A stretch of 64,000 nucleotides of DNA, taken from Planctomycetota bacterium. GTDB taxonomy: Bacteria; Planctomycetota; Phycisphaerae; UBA1845; UTPLA1. The notes below the pieces were generated by a model, which was not told the DNA's origin, ran no database searches, and saw only the letters and a program-made list of their open reading frames with translations. Positions 9,059 to 22,899 of the stretch are shown here, in pieces; positions within the stretch are counted from its first letter, which is position 1; each line of letters begins with the position of its first letter. Where the stretch lies: the NCBI GenBank assembly GCA_016235815.1, contig JACRIM010000045.1:124001-188000 (forward strand), written 5' to 3'. A program made the translations under genes and the position numbers.

Positions 9059-9535
9059 GTGTTAACAATTAGCGCCGCGCACCAGGAGCCGGAACTGTCG
9101 GACATTCGCGTGTTGTTTCGCGAGTATGCCGAGTCACTTGGGTTCCACCTGTGCTTCCAGGATTTCGACCGGGAGATGGCGGAGTTGCCGGGGAACTATG
9201 CACCTCCAGCCGGACGCCTCCTGATCGCAAAATGGAGTGACGCCGTTGCGGGATGCGTGGCGATGAAACAACTGGGCGACGGCATTTGCGAGATGAAACG
9301 GTTCTACGTGCGTCCCAATTTTCGCGGGAAGGGAATCGGTGAGGCCCTAGCCAAGGCCATCATCGCCGCCGGTCGCGACGCCGGGTACGCCAGAATGCGG
9401 CTGGACACCGTGCCCACGATGCAGTCGGCCATCCGCATATACGAATCGCTGGGATTTCGCGATACCGATCCGTACGTATTCAACCCGATTCCGGGGGTTC
9501 GCTATTTGGAACTGGTGTTCTCCGAGTCCGCTTAG
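9059..9535 (+). CDS. GNAT-family N-acetyltransferase
   Basis: This compact 158-residue acetyltransferase starts with GTG at 9059 and has an AAGG-type ribosome site upstream. It has the complete GNAT core: CEMKRFYVRPNFRGKGIG (acetyl-CoA pyrophosphate loop R-G-K-G-I-G), helix EALAKAIIAAGRDAG, strand MRLDTVPTM, and the closing AIRIYESLGFRD. The arrangement resembles amino-acid or small-molecule acetyltransferases; the substrate is unknown. Its end overlaps the convergent esterase gene by 4 nt. Confidence 0.88.
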   Translation: MLTISAAHQEPELSDIRVLFREYAESLGFHLCFQDFDREMAELPGNYAPPAGRLLIAKWSDAVAGCVAMKQLGDGICEMKRFYVRPNFRGKGIGEALAKAIIAAGRDAGYARMRLDTVPTMQSAIRIYESLGFRDTDPYVFNPIPGVRYLELVFSESA

Positions 9536-10683
9536 GGAATCACCAGGTCAATCATGGCGCGGATGTCGTTCCCGTCCGTACGCCCGTCGTGATTGATGTC
9601 GCAGTTCATGGTGTTGCAGCCCAGATGAGCAGCGTCGAATGCAGCAGGATTCACGAGGCGCTGGACAAATGCCGAGACGTCGGCAAGATTCACCACGCCA
9701 TTGCAATCGGCATCTCCAGTCAGCACAGGGCTGCTGAACTGGGCAATGAAGAAGCTCCGAACCGAGACTTCCGTGTCAATGCCAAGAAACCCATGACCGG
9801 CCGCGGGAATGATGCGGTAATCGTGGAACAACGAAAAGGCGAACATGCCGTCAACGAGGCGCGTGCTTTGCTTCATCGGCACCGACGTGTCATTGGTGCC
9901 GTGGCCGATGAAGATCGGCGGATCATCGGCAGAAAGCCACGTGATCGGATTAACCTGATTGCACAATGCCACCAGCGCCGGATACGGCGGATTCGGATTG
10001 GTCAAGTTCGCCTTAATGTCCGCCAACCCCTGACCCGCACCATCCCACCCCACAAGATTCGATTCCGGCGAATTGGGATCGTCATGATCGAACCCGCCCG
10101 GCGGCGTGGTGATGTCCTCATTCATGTGAAGTATGTCAGTAGGACCGAAGTAATCGGCGGCCGCCTGCACCCGGCTGGAAAACGCAAGATTTCCGCCCGA
10201 CGTCCCTTCGAGTGCCGCGACTCCGCCAGAGGTGGCGAGCAAGGCCGAGAGATGCCCACCGGCCGAGCTGCCCCAACATGCGAATCGATTGGGATCGAGA
10301 TTGTACGTCGCCGCGTTCGCGCGGAGATAACGAACGGCGCCTTTCACGTCATGAATCTGTGCCGGAAATATGGCGTCGCCGCTGAGCCGGTAACTGGTGC
10401 TGGCGACGGCAATCCCTGCATTGAGCAAAAGTTGAGTCGATCCCGGAGCTGTATTGTGCGTACCACCCTGCCAACCCCCACCGTGAATCCACAGCACCAG
10501 CGGCCAAGGCCCGCCTGCGGCCGGGAGGTAAATATCCAACATGACGTTTATCGTCCCGCCGGCATCACGTGGGACCGTGGCGAACACGACGTCATTAAAC
10601 GTCGGTGTTACCTGGGCTTGTGACCCCGTCGGCGCGAACACACCTAGGGCGATACCCACTATCGCAATGGCATTCTGCTTCAT
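9532..10683 (-). CDS. Secreted alpha/beta-hydrolase esterase with C-terminal dockerin-like module
   Basis: A cleavable signal peptide (about 1-23, ending SQAQ) is followed by an acetyl-esterase/BD-FAE-type hydrolase. It has the oxyanion motif HGGGW, nucleophile Ser in GSSAGG, an acid Asp in GHGTNDTSVP and catalytic His in AAGHGF. Residues about 320-383 hold two calcium-loop helices (GDADCNGVVNLADV and CDINHDGRTDGNDI), the paired EF-hand arrangement of type I dockerins. In Phycisphaerae such dockerin-like tails are frequent on secreted proteins without a known cellulosome. Polysaccharide deacylation is a plausible role. The 383-residue gene is divergent from the cytochrome island, with a 203-bp spacer. 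Confidence 0.88.
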   Translation of the reverse strand: MKQNAIAIVGIALGVFAPTGSQAQVTPTFNDVVFATVPRDAGGTINVMLDIYLPAAGGPWPLVLWIHGGGWQGGTHNTAPGSTQLLLNAGIAVASTSYRLSGDAIFPAQIHDVKGAVRYLRANAATYNLDPNRFACWGSSAGGHLSALLATSGGVAALEGTSGGNLAFSSRVQAAADYFGPTDILHMNEDITTPPGGFDHDDPNSPESNLVGWDGAGQGLADIKANLTNPNPPYPALVALCNQVNPITWLSADDPPIFIGHGTNDTSVPMKQSTRLVDGMFAFSLFHDYRIIPAAGHGFLGIDTEVSVRSFFIAQFSSPVLTGDADCNGVVNLADVSAFVQRLVNPAAFDAAHLGCNTMNCDINHDGRTDGNDIRAMIDLVIP

Positions 10684-10886: not shown

Positions 10887-12893
10887 GTGATTCGAACGGG
10901 CAGAGTTACTTCGATCTTGTTCTTGTGTGTCGCGCTGGCGTCGGCCGGGGGCTGTCACGATCCAGGCGGCGAATCCATCCAATCGCAACACGCAGAACGT
11001 CTCTATCCGAAACCTCCGCAGACTCCCTGGGTCGCCGCAATTGGTCGATTGGAAAGTGGAAGCGAGCCGACGCGGGGACAGGTTCAGCTTTCGTTGTTTC
11101 TCTTTGGAGAGGAGCCGCAGCCGGTTGCCAGTCTGCTGAAACCGGGAGCCATCGCGCTTCGCGGCGATGATGTCTTCATCACCGACGGTCCGTTGTCCGC
11201 CGTCTTTAAACATCGTCCAGGCTCGCCAGGAATGGACGAACTTCGGCTGAGCGAAAGGCCTCAGGTTCCCGCAGCACTTTGCTTCACGCCCGGCAGAACC
11301 ATGCTTGTGGCCGACGCGCGCGGCGCGGCAGTCATCGAGTACGACGCTCGCGGCGAACGTGTCCGTCGTATCAGCCATCGCGAAACGCTTCGGCCGGCCG
11401 GGGTGGCGTGCGTCGGCGACTCAATCTGGGTCAGCGATCTATCCGAGCATTGCATTGAAGTCTACGACGCCGCGTCGGGTGCGCATCGCCGGCGGATCGG
11501 CGAGCGCGGGTCGAGCGTGGGCCAATTCTCATTTCCAATGGGCATGGCAGTCGGACCGAGCGGCGACGTATTCGTCGTCGACATGATGAACCACCGCGTG
11601 CAGGTGCTTTCACCACGCGGCGAATTCGTGCGATCGTTTGGTGAGGCGGGAGACTGTGCCGGTTGCTTCGGTCGGCCGCGAGATGTGGCGGTCGGACCCG
11701 ATGGAACAATCTTTGTCACGGATACCTCGGGCAGCCGCGTCCACGCGTTTGATGAACGAGGCCGGGCACTGCTTTCATTCGGCGAGCCGGATGGGGGAAT
11801 TGGCGCACTGCTGACGCCAAGCGGGATTGCGATTTCGAAAGCCCGGCCGAGCGGTACATCCGCGATTCCGGAAGGCTTTAGTGTTGCGTATTACGTCTTG
11901 GTAAGCGAACAAATGCTGGAGCCTGGTGTGCGCGTCTATGCCTGGCGCGATCGAACGAAAGCGCCGACACCGCCGCCGCGAAAAGCAACCGCGGGGCCGA
12001 GTTCGCTTTCTCACAAACCGGGGACGCTCGCAAAAGCGGTCGAACCGGCAATCAACCCACACTGGTCTGCAACAAATTGCTCGTCCTGCCATTCGATGGA
12101 CAACGGTCGAACGGTGGTGATCGCGGCCGACAAGGTGGATGCGCTCTGCCTGTCATGCCATGACGGCGCCCGAGCACGGGCCGAAGCCCACCCAATTGGT
12201 CGGCTTGCTGAAAGTGTCGGCGTAAAAACACCGCAGGAGTGGCCGCGGGTGGACGAGCGAATTGGCTGCATCACGTGCCACGACATCCGACAACATTGCA
12301 CGGCCCAGCCGACAAGGGCGATGGACAATCCGACAATGCTCCGCGGCTACAGTGCCGATCGGCCGGCGGCCTACTGCACCCAGTGCCATCAAGCCGATCC
12401 GTCGTGGCGCTTCAGCCCGCATGAACAACTGGCAGAGGGGAAGGTGAAGGAACAATCGTGCCTCTTCTGCCACACCAAGTCCCCCGAGGTACCCAGCGAT
12501 GGCACACGGAGATTTGCCGCGAACCTCAAGGCCGACGGAGCGAAAGTTTGCCTGACCTGCCATGTTCGCCATTGGGACGTCTCCCCCGCCGGACACGTGG
12601 ATCGCCCGGTCACGCCGGAGATCAAGCGCCGATTGGTCGGGCGCGAACTGACCGGCGCGGGCATGTCGCCAGGACCGGAGTTTCTGAAGGCAATGGCCGA
12701 TCCCAATGAGCCTTCACGCCGATTGCCCTTGGCACATGATATGGTGACCTGCTTCACATGCCACAATCCGCACCAAAAGGGGCTGTTTCCAGATTCATCG
12801 GAACTCGGCCGCCGAGCCGTCGCGCCGGAAGACGACAAGGTGGCGCTACGGATGAATCGAATGGAACTGTGCGTGGAATGCCATCGAAAATAG
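10887..12893 (+). CDS. NHL-repeat / octahaem cytochrome c lipoprotein
   Basis: The start is GTG at 10887. A signal peptide ends in a lipobox (SAGGC, about residue 23). Residues about 90-320 form NHL beta-propeller blades, with repeats such as FSFPMGMAVGPSGDVFVVD and GRPRDVAVGPDGTIFVTD. After a proline linker, residues about 390-668 carry eight CXXCH haem sites: CSSCH, CLSCH, CITCH, CTQCH, CLFCH, CLTCH, CFTCH and CVECH. The product is probably an outer-face or periplasmic electron-transfer protein in which the propeller docks a partner or substrate. It leads the cytochrome island. NHL-multihaem fusions are known in metal- and nitrogen-respiring bacteria, but no specific acceptor can be assigned. 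Confidence 0.88.
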   Translation: MIRTGRVTSILFLCVALASAGGCHDPGGESIQSQHAERLYPKPPQTPWVAAIGRLESGSEPTRGQVQLSLFLFGEEPQPVASLLKPGAIALRGDDVFITDGPLSAVFKHRPGSPGMDELRLSERPQVPAALCFTPGRTMLVADARGAAVIEYDARGERVRRISHRETLRPAGVACVGDSIWVSDLSEHCIEVYDAASGAHRRRIGERGSSVGQFSFPMGMAVGPSGDVFVVDMMNHRVQVLSPRGEFVRSFGEAGDCAGCFGRPRDVAVGPDGTIFVTDTSGSRVHAFDERGRALLSFGEPDGGIGALLTPSGIAISKARPSGTSAIPEGFSVAYYVLVSEQMLEPGVRVYAWRDRTKAPTPPPRKATAGPSSLSHKPGTLAKAVEPAINPHWSATNCSSCHSMDNGRTVVIAADKVDALCLSCHDGARARAEAHPIGRLAESVGVKTPQEWPRVDERIGCITCHDIRQHCTAQPTRAMDNPTMLRGYSADRPAAYCTQCHQADPSWRFSPHEQLAEGKVKEQSCLFCHTKSPEVPSDGTRRFAANLKADGAKVCLTCHVRHWDVSPAGHVDRPVTPEIKRRLVGRELTGAGMSPGPEFLKAMADPNEPSRRLPLAHDMVTCFTCHNPHQKGLFPDSSELGRRAVAPEDDKVALRMNRMELCVECHRK

Positions 12894-12928
12894 GCGTAGG
12901 CGTTGCCCGGATTCCTCAGACCAATCAC

Positions 12929-13891
12929 TTATGGTTGGCGGGCCAATTCGCGGAGCCGTTTCTGATTCAATACGGTGTCGAGATGAACGTTCGCGGCAAT
13001 CTCGGCGGCTCGCTCCGGCGTAAACGCCAGTGTCGGCAGCGATACGGAATTGTGGCATCGCAAACAAACCATATCAGCGGTAATCGCCGCCCTTCCCTCG
13101 GAATCGAGACGAACCGACATCTTGTCGTCGCTCAGGAACGCGTTGAAATCCACCTGTTCACCGCTCAGACGGAAGATATGTGACTGACGATCCGCAATGT
13201 GTGCGTACGGGCCTACGACATCAGGCGGCATCACCATGTCCTTTAGCACCGCATTAGGCAAGTGGCAGCTTTCGCAGGTCAGCGTCTCCACATAATCGAC
13301 ACCGGAAAATGTCTTGCCCTTGTGCAGTGCCATGTTCTGGTCTTCGTGGCAGGCAAAGCACTCATTACGCAATCCTCTCGGCCGGTCGTTGACCGTCGAA
13401 TAGTGCGGGTCGTGGCAGTAGCCACAGTTGAAGGAGGAATGGCCACCGCTCGCCCGCAATTCGACCCACTGCTGATTCTGATCCACGAATTCATCCCGGG
13501 CACGAATCTCCCCAGCGTCCGTTTCAGTCGGCTTCCCATGACATTTGCCGCACGTCTGTGCCCCTGTCAGATCGACAAAGAGCATTCGGGCGAAAGGATT
13601 CGGCAGGTGATTCGAGCCGGGGCCGTGGCATTCCTCACAATCAAATGCGTTGTGTGCGTGCTGCTCCACACGTTCAGCATAGTCGGGATGGCAGGACGCG
13701 CAGGCGGCTTTTCCGACCGTCGTCGCCCCCCCATTCGTGGGGTCGGTGGTGTTGTTGTAGTTGTAAGGATTCGGTTGAGAGGGCGGAAAGGTCGGGCAAC
13801 CCGTGGCCCCGGAAAAGAAAAAAAAGGCCGCACCAAGGGTGGTCAAGATCAACGGCTGCGACATTCCTGTTTTCGCGCGACTTGCGCCCAT
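12929..13891 (-). CDS. Heptahaem cytochrome c lipoprotein
   Basis: The chosen start is ATG 13891, giving 320 residues that begin with a lipoprotein signal (FFFFSGATGC). A short Pro/Asn linker follows, then seven CXXCH sites: CASCH, CEECH, CGKCH, CGYCH, CFACH, CESCH and CLRCH. The order of haem sites and the phrases CHGPGSNHLPNPFAR, NMALHKGK and TFTPERAAE recur in the next gene, so the two are paralogues from duplication. The C-terminus after the last haem (VCLRCHN) is a conserved helix. It is probably a membrane-anchored periplasmic electron carrier. It converges with the NHL cytochrome gene across a 35-bp gap. Confidence 0.88.
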   Translation of the reverse strand: MGASRAKTGMSQPLILTTLGAAFFFFSGATGCPTFPPSQPNPYNYNNTTDPTNGGATTVGKAACASCHPDYAERVEQHAHNAFDCEECHGPGSNHLPNPFARMLFVDLTGAQTCGKCHGKPTETDAGEIRARDEFVDQNQQWVELRASGGHSSFNCGYCHDPHYSTVNDRPRGLRNECFACHEDQNMALHKGKTFSGVDYVETLTCESCHLPNAVLKDMVMPPDVVGPYAHIADRQSHIFRLSGEQVDFNAFLSDDKMSVRLDSEGRAAITADMVCLRCHNSVSLPTLAFTPERAAEIAANVHLDTVLNQKRLRELARQP

Positions 13892-14101
13892 AGTGTCCAA
13901 TCTGTGCGAGGGCGCTATTGTACAAAAAAACCGAGGCTCGAGGTGCCGGTGTTCGGGAAGAGAGGATGGCACCCCGAGTCTCGATAACGATCACGGCTTG
14001 TCCCATGCTTCGCTCCCCAGCGAGTAGGCGGGAACGAAGCGACAAGCCGATTACCAATGGTCGTTCATCATCATGGCAGCAATCGTTGCAATCGCCCCGC
14101 C

Positions 14102-15454
14102 CTATGGTTTACTTTTTTCATTCAATGCCGTCGGCAGGTGCAGCCCGATGGCCAACTCGGCGGCTCGCTCCACGGTAAAGGCGAGCGACGGGATTGTGTT
14201 TTCGTTGTGGCACCGGAGGCAAACAAAGTCGACGGTCACGGCTGCACGACCTTGATCATCGCGCACCGCCTGTTTTCCGTCGGCCGTCAGGAAGCCCGTG
14301 TAGTCAAGTGGTTCGGTGCTGATCCGGAAGATGTGCGTACGCGTGTCGCCCATTCGACCCTTGGCCCCGACGACGCCGGCGACAGCGGAGGAGCCACTCT
14401 TGGTTGCATAAGGCATATGGCAGCTTTCGCAACTCAGCACTTCGGTGTAGTCGCCGCGGGTAAAAATCTTGCCTTTGTGAAGGGCCATGTTCGCGTCGGG
14501 GTGACAACTGGTGCAGGTAGCGCGAATCGCCGTGTCGCGGCTGTAGTTCACTGAAACGTGTGGATCATGGCAAACGGTGCACGCAAAGTCCTTGTGCCCG
14601 CCACTGGCCTTAAGCTCCGGCCATTGTTCGTGATGCTGGAGAAATCCACCCGAAGCGATGATCTCGTTGGTGTCGGAGTTGAACGGGCGATTGTGGCACT
14701 CTTTGCAAGTCAGGGCGCCAGACTTGTCCACAAATATTTCACGAGCCTGTGGGTTCGGAACATGGTTGCTTCCCGGCCCGTGGCAGGCCTCGCATTGGAT
14801 CCCGGGTTCAGCCCATGTGCCGATCAGGCCCGGCCTGTTGTCCTGATATTTCGGATTGTCTTCATCCTGTTTCACAGGTCCAGTGGTGTGGCAGAGGAAG
14901 CACGAATAGTCGTATGGTTTATCGTGCGTCAGTGTCGGCTCGTAGTTGACGAAGCCGGGAACGGTACCATTGGCCGGATTTTTCAAGTTCCACTGAGTGG
15001 GAATCGATAGGAGGCCGGTGGTCAGAATGAACCCGTCTTGATTGATGAAACGTGCTTTTTTGGTGTAGCCGCCGATGACATAGGCGATATCCGGCCAAGT
15101 GAATCCGGTAGGCGGATTCGGAACGCCGGCGTTCAGTCCCTCGACCGGGAAGGTCGGTGCCGCGCCCTCAATCTTGGACAGTTTGTACGAATGTCCATGA
15201 ATGCGATGCGTATCGGCGATGCCGGGGTGACAGGTGGCACATGCATCGCGGCCGATGAACGTCGCATTGGCATTGCCGCGATCCGTCGTGTTGTTGAATG
15301 CAGGTTCTTCAGTGGGCGGAGGAACAATGGGCGGTGCCGCACCAAAGGGACAGCCGGTTCCAGTCATCGCAAGGCAGGTAAACAGTATGGCGGCCGAGTA
15401 GAGGACTCCTAGAAATCGCCGAGCACGTTGGGTTGTAGATGCGACATGAGCCAT
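14102..15454 (-). CDS. Octahaem cytochrome c lipoprotein, paralogue of the preceding gene
   Basis: The 450-residue product begins with a lipoprotein signal (LAMTGTGC) and has eight CXXCH motifs: CATCH, CFLCH, CEACH, CKECH, CTVCH, CTSCH, CESCH and CLRCH. Compared with the 320-residue neighbour it has an insertion of about 110 residues after the first haem that contains the extra CFLCH site. From CEACHGPGSNHVPNP onward the two align haem for haem. The length difference suggests a module gain or loss after tandem duplication. Same strand as its neighbours, with about 200 bp between genes; a shared role in a periplasmic electron conduit is inferred. Confidence 0.88.
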   Translation of the reverse strand: MAHVASTTQRARRFLGVLYSAAILFTCLAMTGTGCPFGAAPPIVPPPTEEPAFNNTTDRGNANATFIGRDACATCHPGIADTHRIHGHSYKLSKIEGAAPTFPVEGLNAGVPNPPTGFTWPDIAYVIGGYTKKARFINQDGFILTTGLLSIPTQWNLKNPANGTVPGFVNYEPTLTHDKPYDYSCFLCHTTGPVKQDEDNPKYQDNRPGLIGTWAEPGIQCEACHGPGSNHVPNPQAREIFVDKSGALTCKECHNRPFNSDTNEIIASGGFLQHHEQWPELKASGGHKDFACTVCHDPHVSVNYSRDTAIRATCTSCHPDANMALHKGKIFTRGDYTEVLSCESCHMPYATKSGSSAVAGVVGAKGRMGDTRTHIFRISTEPLDYTGFLTADGKQAVRDDQGRAAVTVDFVCLRCHNENTIPSLAFTVERAAELAIGLHLPTALNEKSKP

Positions 15455-15566
15455 TATTTCACCACTGCCTTCCGTAAGTATTTAACCTTGATGCACGAAT
15501 CTCCATCTTGCCCATTGCTTCGCTCCCGGAGCGAGTGAGCCGGGAGCGAAGCGAGTATGAGCCGGG

Positions 15567-17063
15567 TTATGGAACGTCTGGAGCGGTGAGAGCCAATTCC
15601 TCGGCGATCATCAGGGCTTCGCGGACAAAGTCAGGATTGTGTGCACCGCTGCCGCCACCCTCTCGAACGTAGTAGAGGATGTAGCGGGCCTTCTTGATGT
15701 TGTTCGGAATCTTGCCTTGACCGCCGGCATCGTTCTTGGGGCCGCACTCGCTGGTAAATTCCCAGCAGTGCTCGACCGACGCGCATCCGGTAGCAGCCGC
15801 CAAGGCGCCGCACCATGTCACCTGCGCCGGGCGGGCCGACCATGCCTCCAACGCCTCCTCGACCAGAGCCAAGCGTACATCGATCTCTGCCTTCAGGCCG
15901 TTCAGTTTCGATTCTGCCGCCTCCTCCGACCCGTGGCACTGCACGCAGCCGATGTAGGTCACTTCAAACGTGTGACCAGAGACGGCAGGGGCGACGCCTT
16001 CCACAATCGGCTTGCGGGCCACGTGGCAGGTCGAGCACTGCTCGGCCGCATTTAAGTGAACCGAGGCTCGCGGCGGCACGATCGGATCAGGGAACATCGC
16101 GGGCGATGGGATTTCGCCAAAGAAGACATTCGCCTGATCACTGGGGTGCGGCTCGCGCGAGGAGTCGGTCCAGACGCGGTCGCGGGTGTGGTGGCATTGG
16201 CCGCAAAGATTAAATCGTGTGCGGTCCTGGGCCATGGTCAGGTCGGTCGTCGGTGTCGTGAAGGCGATCTGCGGGAAGCGCAGTTGATAGTCGCGCCCGT
16301 CTTCCGGCGTTGCCGCATTACCCGTCTTGGCATGCGGATTGTGGCAGATGGCGCAAGTAATGCCGGCCATTTGCTCGCTGGCCAAACCAGCCAGCGCATT
16401 ATCCGGAACGGTCTCACCTTTCAGGATACTCCTGTAGAAGAAGTCGCCCGAGTGGCACTTGCCGCACGTATTCAGGCGGCCTGCGGTCCCCGCAGCAAAG
16501 GCCGGTACCAGTTCCGGCTCAACGGCGGCGTGCTTGGACATGCCCCAGTCCTCAAAATTCGGATGGTTTTCGCCAGTGTGGCACTGGCCGCACACGTCCG
16601 CCATGATGCTGACCTTCGGGCGGAGTGACTCGTCGCTGGCATTCATCGCGTGCTCGGCCGCGCCGCCGTGGCAATTCTCGCACTGGACGCCAGCCAGGGA
16701 ATTCGTGGTGGCTCGATCGACATAGCCGCCTTCTTCACCGAAGCCGACCGTGTGACAACCGAGACAATTCGCATTGGTGCCCTGACCGATGGCTTCAAGC
16801 GTCTCTAGCGCTTTGGAGTGAAGGGTCCCCACCCAGTCAGTGTGAATATTGCTATGACACTGCATGCAAACACTGGCACCTTTGAATTTGCCAGTTACGC
16901 CCGAGTCTCCGGGAGTTACACCACCCCCGCCGCCACCGCCGCCATCATCGGGTGGAGGCACAACGGGGCAGCCGGTCGTGCCGGTCATCCCGAGGAAAAT
17001 CGGCAGTGACAATCCGATCACAATCATCGCATGAAGGGAGGACTTTCGGGGGAACTTAGACAT
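15567..17063 (-). CDS. Nonahaem cytochrome c lipoprotein (cytochrome c-554-like haem packing)
   Basis: The start at 17063 has GAGGAG eight bases upstream. The 498-residue protein has a lipobox (GTTGC), a poly-Gly linker and nine CXXCH sites: CMQCH, CLGCH, CENCH, CGQCH, CGKCH, CAICH, CGQCH, CSTCH and CVQCH. Early spacing (VCMQCHSNIH, NCLGCHTVGF, VQCENCHGG) resembles the cytochrome c-554/multihaem family seen in nitrogen-cycle bacteria. The last 130 residues are haem-free and helical with several extra cysteines (WCGALAAATGC). It is the first gene of the leftward cytochrome set, and its promoter lies in the 400-bp divergent spacer. Confidence 0.88.
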   Translation of the reverse strand: MSKFPRKSSLHAMIVIGLSLPIFLGMTGTTGCPVVPPPDDGGGGGGGGVTPGDSGVTGKFKGASVCMQCHSNIHTDWVGTLHSKALETLEAIGQGTNANCLGCHTVGFGEEGGYVDRATTNSLAGVQCENCHGGAAEHAMNASDESLRPKVSIMADVCGQCHTGENHPNFEDWGMSKHAAVEPELVPAFAAGTAGRLNTCGKCHSGDFFYRSILKGETVPDNALAGLASEQMAGITCAICHNPHAKTGNAATPEDGRDYQLRFPQIAFTTPTTDLTMAQDRTRFNLCGQCHHTRDRVWTDSSREPHPSDQANVFFGEIPSPAMFPDPIVPPRASVHLNAAEQCSTCHVARKPIVEGVAPAVSGHTFEVTYIGCVQCHGSEEAAESKLNGLKAEIDVRLALVEEALEAWSARPAQVTWCGALAAATGCASVEHCWEFTSECGPKNDAGGQGKIPNNIKKARYILYYVREGGGSGAHNPDFVREALMIAEELALTAPDVP

Positions 17064-17461
17064 GTTGATGACTCCTCGCACGAAGAACTGGCCACCGAGA
17101 CCGCTCAGCGGCAGCTACCGGACAGATGGATCGCACCGGTCCGAAATGGTGTCGCCAAACCTTATGGCAGTTTGCGTGCCACTCGGTCGTCACCGACCCA
17201 TCAACGGCGTTTTCAACGGATTCGCGGCGATTCAGGGCGAAATGAGCGTTTTCAAGACGCCGCTCCATTGCGCGGGATTCCGCTACTCGCTGCGGCTGGG
17301 TCCACACCCACTGGACGCGAAATGTCACCCCATGCGGGTAGCCCAACGGCCCGCGAATTGCCATGAAATCCTGACCAATGCACCCTCCATTTGCGAAAAT
17401 TCAAGCCCACCGAGCAGGAATTCGACTGGCGGCACTCCCCTACCACCCCATAATAACGACC
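17064..17461. other. Divergent spacer between the two halves of the cytochrome island
   Basis: This 398-bp stretch separates the leftward nonahaem gene from the rightward cytochrome b/c fusion gene. I see no convincing gene in it. It must hold both promoters; no clear -35/-10 pair stands out. The short phrases TTTTCAACGG and TTTTCAAGACG recur about 40 bp apart near its middle and could be part of a regulatory site, but this is weak. Confidence 0.4.
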
Positions 17462-19345
17462 ATGGTGTCGCAAAAGGTTCGTCGAATCGCCTTTTTGGTC
17501 GCCGGATTGCTCACGGGGATCTTCGCTGCGGATTCTTCCGCAGATGATCCGGACAACTGCCTCCTCTGCCACCAATTTCGCGGATTGAGCCGCCTCGATC
17601 CTGAGACCTCTCGCCTACACCTGTTTTTCGCCGACCCGGATTATTCAAATCACCGCCGAGGCCCCCATGCACGCCTGGGCTGCACGGACTGCCACGATCG
17701 ATCCGAAGTGTCAGTCATTCCGCACAAGACCGTTTCTCCGGTCGACTGCGCCCGCGCCTGTCACCTCGCGAATCAGTCGGGCTTGGCGCGTGAATTCAGC
17801 CACGCCCATGTAAAACGCATGTTGCAGGAAAGCGCGCACACAGGCGACGTGCTTTCCAAATTGCAGTTCAACAAGGGGCCGCTGCTTTCCCCAGACCAGT
17901 CAAACTGCCTTTATTGCCATGATGAACCGATCTTTCGCGATCCAGCAAAGGCGATTCCGCGCGTTCGTGGTATGCCGAGTCATGTCTTCGACCGGTGCGA
18001 TGTTTGCCACAAGGAAGCGGCTCCGCTTGATACCGAATATTTTCTGCGTCACGTCGCATCAAGGTTGGTGCCGGCCCGCCCGCCACTGGAGTTGGCGCAG
18101 GTGTGCGCCGTCTGTCACAGCGATCCGCTGATCAACAAATCGCACGACATGCCGGACACAGTAAAAAGCTTCGTTCGAAGCTTTCATGGCAAGGCGGCCC
18201 TGCTTGGCGATGACACGGCGGCGAACTGCCTCTCATGCCACGTAAGCGCCGGCGACAACGCTCATCGAATGCTCGGAAAAAGCAACGCCCTGTCACCCGT
18301 GAACCCGGTGCGACTTGCCGATTCCTGCCGCAGCACCGACTGCCACCCTGGCGCCGACAAGAGCATCGCCGCGACGGCCGTCCACCTCGATCTGCCGACA
18401 GCGCACGGATCGATGGAATACCTTCTCGCCATAACGTTTATTGTGCTCACGATCTTGACCTTTGGGCCGTCGGCGCTGCTCGTGCTGCTTGAACTGGTTC
18501 AAATCATCGTGGGCCGGGAGCAGCATGAAGATCATCGCGTTCGCGGATTGGCCCGGACGTTATTGGCCGACCCGGGCGGACGCGAACGGCTCAAGCGTTT
18601 CAAGCCGCACCACCGCGTGCAGCACTGGATCCTCACCGTGTTGTTCACGTTGCTGGTCATGACCGGATTCCCAATGAAATTCGCTGATCGTGCATGGGCC
18701 GAGGCGATGGTGAACGTCTTCGGCGGATTGCAAATGGCGCGAATCATCCATCACTGGGCAGGCATATTCCTGGTTGTCGGGTTCATGATCCACATGGTGA
18801 TCGTGTTCTTCGTATTCCTCTCATGTGCACGCGAAAGAATGGCAGAGGGTCACACCAACGCCTACAGAAAAGCCTTCACGTCGCTGCCCATGTGGATCTC
18901 ACCGGTCGACGTCAAGAAAACATTTCAACTCCTGGCCTGCTTGTTGTTCCTGCGCAAGGAACGACCGACATTCGGCCGCTTCAGTCCTGCGGAGAAATTC
19001 GAATACCTCGGCGTATTCTGGGGCACCATGCTCCTCGGCATCACCGGCGCCATTCTCTGGGGCGAACAGTATGCCTCGCACTGGCTGGGCGGTTTGTTCG
19101 GCGGCCGCGTGTTCAACCTCTCAACCATTGCCCATACCTATGAAGCGTTTCTCGCCGTCATTCACGTCGGCATTCTGCATATTTACAACGTAATCCTCGC
19201 GCCTCGCGTCTTCCCGCTCTCGCCCGCCACGATCACGGGCGATACACCGCTCGATAAACTTGTGGAGGAACACAGCGAACTGGTGGAAGAAGTCGCCCGC
19301 GATCTGGGACTTATGCCGCAGGAGAAGCCAAATGAACCAGCCTGA
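17462..19345 (+). CDS. Multihaem cytochrome c fused to a cytochrome b (FdnI/b561-like) membrane domain
   Basis: From ATG 17462 the 627-residue protein has a signal segment and a periplasmic part with six CXXCH sites (CLLCH, CTDCH, CLYCH, CDVCH, CAVCH, CLSCH), plus one CX3CH (CARACH) and one CX4CH (CRSTDCH). A first membrane helix near residue 320 leads into a b-type domain with KPHHRVQHWIL and RIIHHWAG, whose paired His are typical ligands of formate-dehydrogenase-gamma/b561 cytochromes. About five membrane segments follow, ending in a charged cytoplasmic tail. It probably couples quinol oxidation or reduction to the periplasmic haem wires. It overlaps the next gene by 14 nt, indicating coupled translation. 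Confidence 0.88.
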   Translation: MVSQKVRRIAFLVAGLLTGIFAADSSADDPDNCLLCHQFRGLSRLDPETSRLHLFFADPDYSNHRRGPHARLGCTDCHDRSEVSVIPHKTVSPVDCARACHLANQSGLAREFSHAHVKRMLQESAHTGDVLSKLQFNKGPLLSPDQSNCLYCHDEPIFRDPAKAIPRVRGMPSHVFDRCDVCHKEAAPLDTEYFLRHVASRLVPARPPLELAQVCAVCHSDPLINKSHDMPDTVKSFVRSFHGKAALLGDDTAANCLSCHVSAGDNAHRMLGKSNALSPVNPVRLADSCRSTDCHPGADKSIAATAVHLDLPTAHGSMEYLLAITFIVLTILTFGPSALLVLLELVQIIVGREQHEDHRVRGLARTLLADPGGRERLKRFKPHHRVQHWILTVLFTLLVMTGFPMKFADRAWAEAMVNVFGGLQMARIIHHWAGIFLVVGFMIHMVIVFFVFLSCARERMAEGHTNAYRKAFTSLPMWISPVDVKKTFQLLACLLFLRKERPTFGRFSPAEKFEYLGVFWGTMLLGITGAILWGEQYASHWLGGLFGGRVFNLSTIAHTYEAFLAVIHVGILHIYNVILAPRVFPLSPATITGDTPLDKLVEEHSELVEEVARDLGLMPQEKPNEPA

Positions 19346-20432
19346 CGGCATTCCCACGATCCATTCAATCTCCGCCTCGAAGCGCTGGTATCGACGCGTG
19401 CGCAAGACAATTTCGCGCATTTACGCCACCTTGCTGATGGCACTCATTCTCTACCTGACACTGTCGGCAGTGTGGTATCTGATTTCGTCCCTCGCCAGAA
19501 GCAGCACACCCGAGCAGCTCACCAACATCCCCGTCAAGATGGATCGTGCCTTGCTCGACACGGAGCGCGCCGCCTGGCGCGGATTTGAAGTCTCCGACAA
19601 TCCGCGAACGCCCCTGGCCCATTACCACCGCGTGGACGGCTGGATTCAGCCGGACAAATTCAACGGTTGCACGCAATCGGGTTGTCATGCGCCGTTGCCG
19701 CACTCGAAGCGAAAGGAAGTGCGTGCCTTCTTAAACATGCACGCAACGAGCATGCATTGTGGCGTCTGCCACATGCAGACCGAGAAGGTCCCGCTGGACG
19801 TCCTCTGGTATGACCTCGCCAATGGTCAGCCGCAAAGCTCGCCGGCGATCCTGGAGGCTTATGGGTTGCTACTTGGTACGCCACCCAAGCCCGACGATGA
19901 GGCCGCCCTGAAGACCTTGCAAGAGAAACTCGTCCGACTCTTGAACAGAGCCTCCATCGGCGCAGGAAACCCGCCGGCCATTCAGGATCTGGCCGATCAC
20001 TTTTCCGCTGTCCGAGCCACAAGCGAGGCGTTCACAAAGCTGCTCGCGTCCGGTCGGGAGGCGCTGCCCAAGCATTTCCGCGGCGAGTATGGGGCAAAGC
20101 TTGCACTGGCGACTGCATCACCACGCGGGCCGATGTTAATGCACCCCAACACCGAGCAGGCCGTCAGAGCCTTCCTGGATCGCCGCGACTCGGCGACAGG
20201 CGAGAGCCGGAAGGCCCTTCTCGACGCCGTTCATCCCCTCAAACGGCCCAAGGCGCTTCATTGCTCCGATTGTCACACGACGGGGCAATCGCTGATTGAC
20301 TTCGCCAAGATCGGCTACCCGGCCGCCCGTACCGAAGCATTACGCTCGCCCATCATTGTGCGCATGATCGAAAGCATCAACGCCGGACACGAGATGCACC
20401 TGCCGGGCTTTGTGAAGCCGAACTCGCCCTAA
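19332..20432 (+). CDS. Membrane-anchored trihaem cytochrome c
   Basis: ATG 19332 has GGAG eight bases upstream and lies inside the end of the preceding gene. The 366-residue protein has a basic N-terminus, one membrane helix at about residues 30-52 (IYATLLMALILYLTLSAVW), and a periplasmic part with CX4CH (CTQSGCH) and two CXXCH sites (CGVCH, CSDCH). A helical, haem-free region of about 150 residues separates the second and third sites. The arrangement suggests a partner subunit of the cytochrome b/c fusion, passing electrons between the membrane quinone site and soluble multihaem proteins. Confidence 0.82.
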   Translation: MNQPDGIPTIHSISASKRWYRRVRKTISRIYATLLMALILYLTLSAVWYLISSLARSSTPEQLTNIPVKMDRALLDTERAAWRGFEVSDNPRTPLAHYHRVDGWIQPDKFNGCTQSGCHAPLPHSKRKEVRAFLNMHATSMHCGVCHMQTEKVPLDVLWYDLANGQPQSSPAILEAYGLLLGTPPKPDDEAALKTLQEKLVRLLNRASIGAGNPPAIQDLADHFSAVRATSEAFTKLLASGREALPKHFRGEYGAKLALATASPRGPMLMHPNTEQAVRAFLDRRDSATGESRKALLDAVHPLKRPKALHCSDCHTTGQSLIDFAKIGYPAARTEALRSPIIVRMIESINAGHEMHLPGFVKPNSP

Positions 20433-20442
20433 TCCTCATCAT

Positions 20443-20470
20443 TTGCCAATTCGCCCCAACGGCCTAGCAT
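20443..20470 (+). promoter_or_regulatory. Possible promoter of the DUF1570 lipoprotein gene
   Basis: TTGCCA (20443-20448) and TAGCAT (20465-20470) are separated by 16 bp. The downstream ATG begins eight bases after the -10 box, so any transcript from here would be nearly leaderless. Seen by eye only. Confidence 0.3.
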
Positions 20471-20478
20471 ATGGCCGC

Positions 20479-21447
20479 ATGACACGAGCAGATTCTCCAC
20501 GTCGAACGCTGTTGGGGGTTATTACGCTTGCCGTGCTCGCCACGACGGGCTGCAAGAGCACAGCGCCGCCGCCGATCGCGTTCACGACCGAGGATTGGGC
20601 GTACCAAGGAGCGAAAGGAAGCAAACTCTCGTCGGACCATTATGTGCTCTACACAACCTGCCGATCCAAGCCGTTCATCGCTGCCTTGCCGGCATTCATG
20701 GAGACTTGCCGCGCCGAATATGAAAAACACGTCATGCCGCTTTCGGCACAGGAAAAATGCGAGGCCTATTTATTCGGCACGCGCCGACAATGGGAGCGAT
20801 TCACCGAAGAGTTTGCACCAACGCGCGCCGCAATCTACAAACGCATTCGTTCGGGCGGATACTCGGAACGAGGAATCACCGTGTCGCATTACGACACGCA
20901 ACGAAGCACGCTGTCTGTGCTTGCCCACGAAGGGTTGCATCAATATCTGGAAGCAACCAGGCCGCGCGAAGTGCCGGCATGGCTGAATGAAGGCCTGGCG
21001 TGCTATTTCGAAGCCTTTGTGCTCGATGAAAACAATCGGCCCACGTTCACACCGACGAAAAACCCCCTGCGCTCCCCGGGCCTGCGCGAGGCGCTCACCG
21101 GTAAGAGCCTGATCCCGTTAAAGGAAATACTTAACACGCACGCGGGCCTCGAAGTGCAAAAAAAGGCCGTGCAAGTGCGAAACTACTATTCGCAGGAATG
21201 GGCACTGATCGTTTTCCTTATGCGGCAGAAGAAGGAGAACCCCTATTACGATTCATTTCGCACATTGCTCGCTGAACTCGGAACCGACGACATGCTCCGA
21301 AAGGCCAACGCGATGTTGGCGGCGGATACGGAAGGCGGCATGACGCTTGGAGAGGCCGTGTTCCGTGCCTACATCAATGACGATCTCGAAGGGTTCCAGG
21401 TCGAGTACGAGGCGTTCCTGCACAAATTCATGGACTTGGGCGACTGA
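20479..21447 (+). CDS. DUF1570-type putative zinc metalloprotease lipoprotein
   Basis: This 322-residue lipoprotein (lipobox ATTGC) has a gluzincin-like site HEGLHQ followed by PAWLNEGLACYFE. That gives HEXXH plus a downstream Glu in the NEG motif, as in DUF1570/peptidase MA-like proteins widespread in planctomycetes. The N-terminal part binds the fold with YHVLYTT-like strands, and the C-terminus is helical. A second protein of the same class lies at 26554-27687. Substrate and real peptidase activity are unknown. The purB gene follows after 3 bp, so they are likely co-transcribed. Confidence 0.8.
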   Translation: MTRADSPRRTLLGVITLAVLATTGCKSTAPPPIAFTTEDWAYQGAKGSKLSSDHYVLYTTCRSKPFIAALPAFMETCRAEYEKHVMPLSAQEKCEAYLFGTRRQWERFTEEFAPTRAAIYKRIRSGGYSERGITVSHYDTQRSTLSVLAHEGLHQYLEATRPREVPAWLNEGLACYFEAFVLDENNRPTFTPTKNPLRSPGLREALTGKSLIPLKEILNTHAGLEVQKKAVQVRNYYSQEWALIVFLMRQKKENPYYDSFRTLLAELGTDDMLRKANAMLAADTEGGMTLGEAVFRAYINDDLEGFQVEYEAFLHKFMDLGD

Positions 21448-21450
21448 GCC

Positions 21451-22899
21451 ATGGCCACGCCTCGAAACACGCCCGACGATGTCTATGCCAGTCCGCTGGT
21501 TGCCAGAAATGCCTCGGCCGACATGGCGGCCCTGTTCTCACCCATGCGACGGGCGCGCACGTGGCGACGCATCTGGCTGGCACTCGCCGAAGCAGAGCGA
21601 GAAATGGGGCTGCCGATTACGGCGGCCCAGATTCGCGCGCTTCGCACAGCGGTGGATCGGGTCAACCTGCGTCGCGTGGCCGCGCACGAGCGTCGACTCC
21701 GACACGATGTGATGGCCCACCTTCACGCCTATGCCGATGAAGCCCCATCGGCTCGCGGCATTTTGCACATGGGCGCCACGAGCATGGATGTTGTGGACAA
21801 TGCCGACTTGATCCTTATGCGCGAGGCTTTGGGCATCCTCCAGCAGTGGTTGGTGACGGTCGTCGATGCAATGGCCCGGCAAGCCCGGGCCTATCGCGCG
21901 CTCCCCTGTTTGGGCTTTACCCACTATCAACCGGCTCAACTCACCACGGTTGGTAAGCGTATCAGTTTGTGGTGCTGGGACTTCATGCGTGATCTGCAGG
22001 AAGTGTCCCGATTGATGGAAGGGCTGCGATTCCGCGGTATCCGTGGCGCAACCGGAACTCAGGCAAGCTTTCTAAAACTGTTCGACGGCAACGCGACAAA
22101 AGTGGCCCGACTTGAAACGCTCGTCGCCAAAAAACTGGGATTCGCCGCCTGCGAACCGATAACGGGGCAGACTTATTCGCGCAAGGTCGATGCCCAGGTT
22201 GTCGCCGCACTCGCCAACATCGCCGCCGGCGTGCATAAATTCGCGAACGACATTCGACTTCTGGCAAACCTCAAGGAAATCGAAGAGCCGTTCGAGCGGG
22301 CGCAGGTCGGTAGCTCCGCGATGCCCTACAAGCGCAACCCGATGCTGTGCGAACGCGCCACGGGCCTGGCCCGTTTCGTGATCAGCCTCGCGACCTCGGG
22401 CTTTCAGACCGCCGCGGAGCAATGGCTGGAGCGGACACTCGACGATTCATCCAATAAGCGACTTCTCATTCCCGAAGTGTTCCTCGCAACCGATGGCATG
22501 CTTCAGATCACAGCGCGAGTCGCAGGTGGATTGGTCGTGAACCCCAGGGTCATCGCAGCCCGCATCAATGCCGAGTTGCCTTTTATCGCCTCCGAAGACA
22601 TCCTCATGGCAGCGGTGAAATCCGGCGGCGACCGACAGGCCTTGCATGAACGGATTCGAGTGCATTCGCATGCGGCCGGAGCGGAGGTCAAACAACACGG
22701 CCGGCCCAATGACCTGATCGACCGATTGCGCTCCGACAAGGCGTTCTCGCGCGTGCGGCTCGATAAGATATTGACCCATTCCGCATACGTGGGCCTCGCC
22801 CCGCGACAGGTCGATGATTTCCTGAAGCATCACGTTGGTGCCGACTATCGTCGCCGCTATGCCAAAATCAAGCGGCGCCGCGCGGAGATCAACGTATGA
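21451..22899 (+). CDS. purB: Adenylosuccinate lyase, eukaryote-like long form
   Basis: PurB cleaves SAICAR and adenylosuccinate with release of fumarate in purine synthesis. The 482-residue sequence holds the superfamily signature GSSAMPYKRNP, the catalytic-loop region and LRFRGIRGATGTQASFL. Its length and several blocks (RTWRRIWLALAEAE, ERRLRHDVMAH, LGFTHYQPAQLTTVGKR) closely resemble animal ADSL as I recall it, more than the roughly 430-residue common bacterial form. It shares a 4-nt ATGA overlap with pyrE downstream, so the two nucleotide-synthesis genes are translationally coupled. Confidence 0.96.
   Translation: MATPRNTPDDVYASPLVARNASADMAALFSPMRRARTWRRIWLALAEAEREMGLPITAAQIRALRTAVDRVNLRRVAAHERRLRHDVMAHLHAYADEAPSARGILHMGATSMDVVDNADLILMREALGILQQWLVTVVDAMARQARAYRALPCLGFTHYQPAQLTTVGKRISLWCWDFMRDLQEVSRLMEGLRFRGIRGATGTQASFLKLFDGNATKVARLETLVAKKLGFAACEPITGQTYSRKVDAQVVAALANIAAGVHKFANDIRLLANLKEIEEPFERAQVGSSAMPYKRNPMLCERATGLARFVISLATSGFQTAAEQWLERTLDDSSNKRLLIPEVFLATDGMLQITARVAGGLVVNPRVIAARINAELPFIASEDILMAAVKSGGDRQALHERIRVHSHAAGAEVKQHGRPNDLIDRLRSDKAFSRVRLDKILTHSAYVGLAPRQVDDFLKHHVGADYRRRYAKIKRRRAEINV

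Follow-up and report, generated by a model that had tools for sequence, protein, structure and literature searches.

Extracellular electron transfer (EET) has been studied mainly in Proteobacteria and Desulfobacterota. Among its known components are porin-cytochrome conduits, b/c quinone modules and OmcE-type cytochromes. The quinol oxidases CbcL, MtrH and MtoC (Geobacter, Rhodoferax and Gallionella) combine an N-terminal multihaem cytochrome c with a C-terminal HydC/FdnI-type cytochrome b (PMC6295460, PMC9129911). This class occurs in Fe(III) reducers and in Fe(II) oxidisers, and two planctomycete members were counted in 2018 (PMC6295460). Conduits such as MtrCAB/MtoAB and the OmcB, Ext and Oet systems of Geobacter consist of a porin together with periplasmic and surface multihaem cytochromes, while PCC3 and PCC4 of Fe(II) oxidisers comprise a porin, very haem-rich periplasmic proteins and a membrane protein with two b-haems, PCC4 having planctomycete members [PMC5566968]. 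The parts of Uet in Tenderiales and Gallionella include tetrahaem, beta-barrel and NHL-repeat proteins and an 11-12-haem cytochrome with doubled CXXCH [PMC10734462]. Moreover, a 2023 Oslofjord tunnel study that included family UBA1845 described Planctomycetota metagenome-assembled genomes with putative porin-cytochrome genes [PMC10732223]. Here, we discuss an island of six multihaem cytochrome genes in a stretch of 64,000 nucleotides (the window) from an uncultured member of the Phycisphaerae (Planctomycetota; contig JACRIM010000045.1, positions 124,001 to 188,000).

We consider it likely that the island encodes those parts of a trans-envelope EET chain that lie in the inner membrane and the periplasm, the rest being encoded elsewhere in the genome. 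The best reading is a CbcL-class quinone module that would feed a Uet/OmcE-like porin-cytochrome conduit. The six genes are as follows.

10887-12893, + strand: NHL-c8, NHL-octahaem protein (8 CxxCH; PF01436)
12929-13972, - strand: c7, heptahaem protein (7 CxxCH)
14102-15454, - strand: c8, octahaem protein (8 CxxCH)
15567-17081, - strand: c9, nonahaem protein (9 CxxCH; PF13435, 6.9e-19)
17378-19345, + strand: bc, b/c fusion (6 CxxCH, one CX3CH and one CX4CH; PF01292)
19332-20432, + strand: c3, trihaem protein (2 CxxCH and one CX4CH)

The original prediction had counted 8, 7, 8, 9, 8 and 3 haem motifs in these genes, and the recount agrees gene by gene, giving 43 haem-c sites (8 + 7 + 8 + 9 + 8 + 3) when the CX3CH and CX4CH motifs of bc and the CX4CH motif of c3 are included. 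Over all six frames of the window, 40 of 45 CxxCH motifs fall inside the island genes, and shuffling the residues of each protein (2000 shuffles) yields a mean of 0.004-0.04 CxxCH with a maximum of 2. The gene coordinates bear out the proposed arrangement, NHL-c8 being convergent on c7-c8-c9 and the latter divergent from bc-c3. The two fusions that had been proposed are also recovered, as an NHL domain (Pfam PF01436, 1.6e-16) and a b561/FdnI-type domain (Pfam PF01292, 2.3e-9), and the four suspected lipoproteins have N-termini that match a lipobox rule, the rule used being permissive.

In bc, an N-terminal octahaem c domain is followed by a multi-helix, FdnI/HydC-like cytochrome b of the diheme type. 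Its CX3CH (residues 124-129) and CX4CH (residues 317-323) motifs are invariant in 41 homologues, as are all eight c-haem sites, eight further periplasmic His and, in the membrane domain, H416, H458, H472, H586 and H601. The invariant His are thus sufficient for bis-His c-haems plus two b-haems. Members of the CbcL/MtrH/MtoC class have six transmembrane helices; for bc, hydropathy indicates a signal peptide and five other membrane segments, and the AlphaFold model has several long helices from residue 318. The single clear PDB match of this model is FdnI of E. coli formate dehydrogenase N (1kqf_C, TM 0.73 to target), which is also the sole match in a sequence-profile search with bc; the octahaem domain has no match among PDB sequences. 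The invariant b-haem His and the FdnI-like fold support the earlier suggestion that the b/c fusion is the quinone end, and bc is likely a quinone oxidoreductase of the CbcL/MtrH/MtoC class, with which it shares the domain order, the conserved b-haem His, the bis-His-sufficient His and the adjoining cytochrome genes. It differs from CbcL, which by its description has nine CxxCH, in having eight c-haems including the CX3CH and CX4CH sites, and from the class as a whole in being coupled to a trihaem partner. The inner-membrane protein of PCC3/PCC4, unlike bc, is a separate five-helix HX13H protein with no c domain [PMC5566968].

The trihaem partner, c3, has one N-terminal membrane helix and three haems, whose motifs are all conserved in 41 homologues. 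Its start is placed at ATG 19332 rather than TTG 19260, with AGGAGA upstream and a 14-nt overlap with the bc stop, and the gene reads as translationally coupled to bc; for bc itself, ATG 17462 is a likelier start than 17378. A predicted DUF1570 lipoprotein with an HExxH motif (HEGLH) is encoded 11 bp after c3 (20443-21447, +), with 4 bp separating it from the following gene at 21451, which by eye looks purB-like. It was considered as an operon partner and rejected, its homologue being absent from all relatives' loci read. On the other side of the island lies a BD-FAE-type esterase with a dockerin-like C-terminus (9532-10683, -; DADCNGVVNLADVSAFV...), which is unrelated to the cytochromes.

The proteins encoded between bc and the NHL fusion are candidate carriers. 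The tandem paralogues c7 and c8 are 50% identical over 237 aa, c7 having one haem site fewer and missing a stretch of c8; its lipobox Cys is Cys59 in the long reading of the gene. In c8, seven haem sites are conserved in 19 homologues together with eight further His, and its gene stands beside bc or divergent from bc in relatives. Probably, c8 is an octahaem lipoprotein that carries electrons in the periplasm or anchored to the outer membrane. The c554-type c9, a predicted nonahaem lipoprotein with orthologues 58-73% identical, has ten conserved extra His for its nine haems and is probably an electron carrier between the inner- and outer-membrane modules. As the conserved His of c7 and c8 are likewise enough for bis-His ligation of the haems shared in the family, all three proteins are probably carriers and not nitrogen-oxide enzymes. 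Ligand counts together with family scores speak against an NrfA/HAO-type function of c7-c9, which was therefore rejected, none of the NrfA, HAO and octahaem-nitrite-reductase families exceeding its cut-off in family-profile scans of the island proteins. Direct use of nitrogen oxides, one of the options first put forward, is accordingly disfavoured, since the conserved His cover both axial ligands of the family-common haems; metals or extracellular partners are possible donors or acceptors, which are indistinguishable here.

NHL-c8, a predicted lipoprotein (Cys23), combines an NHL beta-propeller (approximately residues 120-320) with an octahaem c domain (residues 390-668). Eight haem Cys/His sets are invariant in 30 homologous c-domains, in which only six distal His are universal (H470 is present in 63% and C471 in 83%), and one or two of its haems may therefore have an unusual or open ligand. 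It probably acts as a periplasmic or outer-surface relay. In relatives it corresponds to two adjacent genes, one for the NHL part and one, h8, for the haem part, the latter overlapping bc.

Beside the NHL-octahaem gene, relatives carry a tetrahaem gene, a gene for a haem-free protein of approximately 700 residues, a second NHL lipoprotein gene and an 11+1-haem gene. The counterpart in the genome under discussion lies outside the window, on the same contig about 100 kb downstream of the island:

C27:244959-250752 (L105:9960-15753): outer-membrane set of h4 (tetrahaem protein), barrel, NHL lipoprotein and 12-haem protein (11 CxxCH and one CX3CH)

The haem-free protein is, according to its model, a beta-barrel. 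The AlphaFold model, built for an L085 homologue together with 10 relatives, has a mean pLDDT of 79.7 and at least 26 strands, and its Foldseek matches are outer-membrane barrels. With VIA-align, MtrB is the top match (Z 17.4, 421 residues), and the next unrelated porin reaches Z 16.1. The 12-haem protein (L105:13957-15753) consists of OmcE-like first 200 residues fused to an eight-haem domain; residues 9-209 align to 8-231 of PDB 7tfs (E 5e-30), which we take to be the OmcE cytochrome filament of Geobacter, and the alignment takes in the KHD/HP ligand regions as well as each of the four CxxCH. The predicted tetrahaem lipoprotein h4 matches the same structure weakly (E 3e-7) and is 34% identical to the OmcE-like part of the 12-haem protein. 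Both thus align with OmcE at its haem sites, with the differences that the 12-haem protein carries the extra eight-haem domain and that h4 is a lipoprotein by prediction and only distantly similar. The 12-haem protein with its OmcE-like head is a possible filament anchor.

As in MtrCAB/MtoAB and the Geobacter OmcB/Ext/Oet systems, a porin is accompanied by predicted periplasmic and surface multihaem cytochromes, and the barrel model is closest to MtrB; NHL lipoproteins take the place of the decahaem surface cytochrome. No protein reached the NCBIfam cut-off for MtrA (DmsE family, TIGR03508; 192 bits) or MtrC (TIGR03507; 209 bits): the highest MtrA scores were 40.5 bits among the island proteins and 108.9 bits elsewhere, and the highest MtrC score was 18.7 bits. 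The resemblance to PCC3/PCC4 lies in the porin, the very haem-rich periplasmic proteins and the membrane protein with two b-haems. With respect to Uet, h4, the barrel, the NHL protein and the 12-haem protein occur together as in its parts list, a likeness of parts and not of sequence. Compared with Uet as described, the trihaem run (UetD/E/G) was not seen beside the module in 12 loci, the peptidyl-prolyl isomerase (UetB) was not recognised among neighbours, which had no profile scan for it, and the parts are split over loci in this genome. Membership of the outer-membrane set in Uet is suggested on this analogy.

A third locus, on another contig, encodes further candidate members of the chain:

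C16:15421-20520: NapC/NirT-type 12-haem protein, divergent from an NHL-20-haem protein

Together, the ten cytochromes of the three loci have 43 + 16 + 32 = 91 c-haem sites.

That these loci form one system is suggested by the joined rows of modules and their co-occurrence in relatives. One row (L109/L029) reads 12-haem-NHL-barrel-h4-NHLc8-c8-c9-c9-bc-c3, another (L027/L049) c8-c9-bc-c3-NapC-12-NHL-20, and L041/L067, L043/L087 and L077 are near-complete single rows of outer-membrane genes-NHL-h8-bc-c3-NHL-h20/24. In L041, L043 and L077 nearly all genes run in one direction, and in several of the near-complete rows h8 overlaps bc by 19-43 nt. The original prediction had held that a lack of co-conservation among relatives would speak against it; what we find is that 38 of 43 distinct loci have c3 directly after bc, and that c9 is present in 35 of 42 bc-positive genomes. 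The co-occurrence sample comprises 114 genomes of the order, in which bc is present in 42, the barrel in 87 and c9 in 39. In Fisher tests whose p values take no account of shared ancestry, both the barrel (41/42 bc-positive versus 46/72 bc-negative genomes; p 1.9e-5) and c9 (4/72 of the bc-negative genomes; p 5.6e-18) are associated with bc. In a phylum-wide sample of 392 genomes, bc was not found outside its own genome, because no other genome listed came from the same order.

Related sets are also present on contigs from Gammaproteobacteria, Desulfobacterota and Neomarinimicrobiota, which carry NHL-18/24-haem, NHL, 11+1-haem and tetrahaem genes, with octahaem-c, cytochrome b and trihaem as separate genes. 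In the gammaproteobacterial and Desulfobacterota homologues of bc, this split layout is closer to CbcBA. The gammaproteobacterial barrel, found in the same arrangement, aligns by profile with the planctomycete barrel over 554 columns at 98.3% probability. A barrel candidate from Neomarinimicrobiota (L097) gave no alignment with the barrel profile and was dropped.

The conduit reading is based on gene content, motifs, haem-ligand conservation, the barrel fold, co-occurrence and the synteny of the three loci, from which we infer localisation, the electron route, the sequence of periplasmic carriers, the direction of flow and the terminal partner. In the proposed scheme, menaquinol would be oxidised at the two b-haems of bc, and electrons would pass to its periplasmic octahaem domain and to the membrane-anchored c3. 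Next would come c9, c8 and c7 as lipoprotein carriers, together with the NHL-octahaem protein, and the third locus might join with its NHL 20-haem protein as a relay and its NapC/NirT-type 12-haem protein as a second quinol dehydrogenase. Crossing of the outer membrane would depend on the 12-haem protein, in or at the MtrB-like barrel of approximately 700 aa, and the end point would be the OmcE-like tetrahaem surface cytochrome h4, which may polymerise, with a metal oxide or another cell as partner.

Several findings weigh against this scheme. No porin is found among the island genes, so the island by itself is no conduit; of the original proposal, a trans-envelope conduit is supported, while its six genes are insufficient on their own. 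The barrel resembles MtrB in fold only, given the Z score of the unrelated porin, and has no match among PDB sequences. Its presence in 46 genomes that lack bc means that it is not specific to the bc inner-membrane module, and the Fisher tests for bc, barrel and c9 are subject to the ancestry effect mentioned above. Furthermore, the modules of this genome lie approximately 100 kb and one contig apart, and the genome holds three haem-copper oxidases, so that EET is not its sole respiration. We also note that contig 54 of the same genome has a haem-copper oxidase, Rieske, cytochrome b and octahaem and pentahaem proteins in one row (L132:3325-12470), to all appearances another multihaem respiratory cluster.

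The alternative that survives best is a variant with the same anatomy and inward flow, such as has been put forward for MtoC and for the Uet of cathode-oxidising Tenderiales. A syntrophic partner, an electrode or Fe(II) would supply electrons to the OmcE-like and 12-haem/barrel proteins, and bc would pass them on to quinone. The resemblance of the outer-membrane set to the Uet parts (tetrahaem, barrel, NHL and undecahaem proteins; PMC10734462) and the three haem-copper oxidases as possible electron sinks keep inward flow in play, and homologues of CbcL/MtrH/MtoC occur in Fe(II) oxidisers as in Fe(III) reducers (PMC6295460). Against it, RuBisCO was found neither in this genome nor in 38 of 40 searched relatives, which gives no sign of Calvin-cycle lithoautotrophy, and the carriers are accompanied by several quinol-oxidising modules (bc and NapC/NirT; Rieske/cytochrome b in relatives). 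These two observations make us lean somewhat to outward flow, and we regard the inward variant as possible, if rather doubtful.

An improbable explanation is a purely periplasmic respiration, in which bc and c3 would supply electrons to c9, c8, c7 or NHL-c8 as a terminal reductase of nitrogen or sulfur oxides. The c554 domains of c9, its similarity to 6i5b and 1bvb, and the possibly open or unusual ligands of NHL-c8 agree with such a role. The bis-His sufficiency of c7, c8 and c9 and the sub-threshold family scores do not, and the modules are repeatedly linked to the barrel and to OmcE-like proteins.

Slightly less probable again, the multihaem proteins might substitute for a bc1/c link from the quinone pool to the oxidases or to a Rieske/cytochrome b complex, without any step at the cell surface. 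Three relatives (L028:3968-7096, L035/L048 and L036) have a protein that joins a Rieske domain to a nonahaem cytochrome, its gene lying beside that of cytochrome b and in one row with c9; by gene content these rows encode an unusual bc1-like complex, and the genome discussed here does have oxidases. However, a search of that genome for the multihaem Rieske protein returned only ordinary Rieske domains, the neighbourhoods of bc read in relatives showed no recognisable oxidase gene (not all neighbours were family-scanned), and the barrel co-occurs with bc. Finally, a chance gathering of unrelated cytochromes, to which the simple tandem duplication of c7/c8 and the break-up of the six-gene set in some relatives might point, is largely excluded by the bc-c3 adjacency, the bc-c9 co-occurrence and the recurring linkage to one set of outer-membrane genes in different families and phyla.

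Returning to the trans-envelope conduit, we found no description of the whole gene set as one unit in the open-access literature. New are the link of the island to the two other loci, the pairing of an octahaem b/c protein with a trihaem protein, the NHL-octahaem fusion and the OmcE-like head on a conduit cytochrome; the exact six-gene set itself is not intact in every relative. More tentatively, the three loci may amount to a complete, nanowire-tipped conduit of about 91 c-haems in uncultured Phycisphaerae, in which the OmcE-like head of the 12-haem protein would nucleate an OmcE-type filament, and which would be one system, undescribed as a unit, shared with Gammaproteobacteria, Myxococcota and Desulfobacterota.

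If the conduit reading is true, a large part of a planctomycete order that occurs in wastewater, groundwater and sediments has conserved a whole trans-envelope set, and a major group would be added to those involved in metal cycling or interspecies electron exchange. Moreover, an OmcE-like module fused to a conduit cytochrome offers a testable idea for how an extracellular cytochrome filament plugs into the outer membrane, a long-standing gap.

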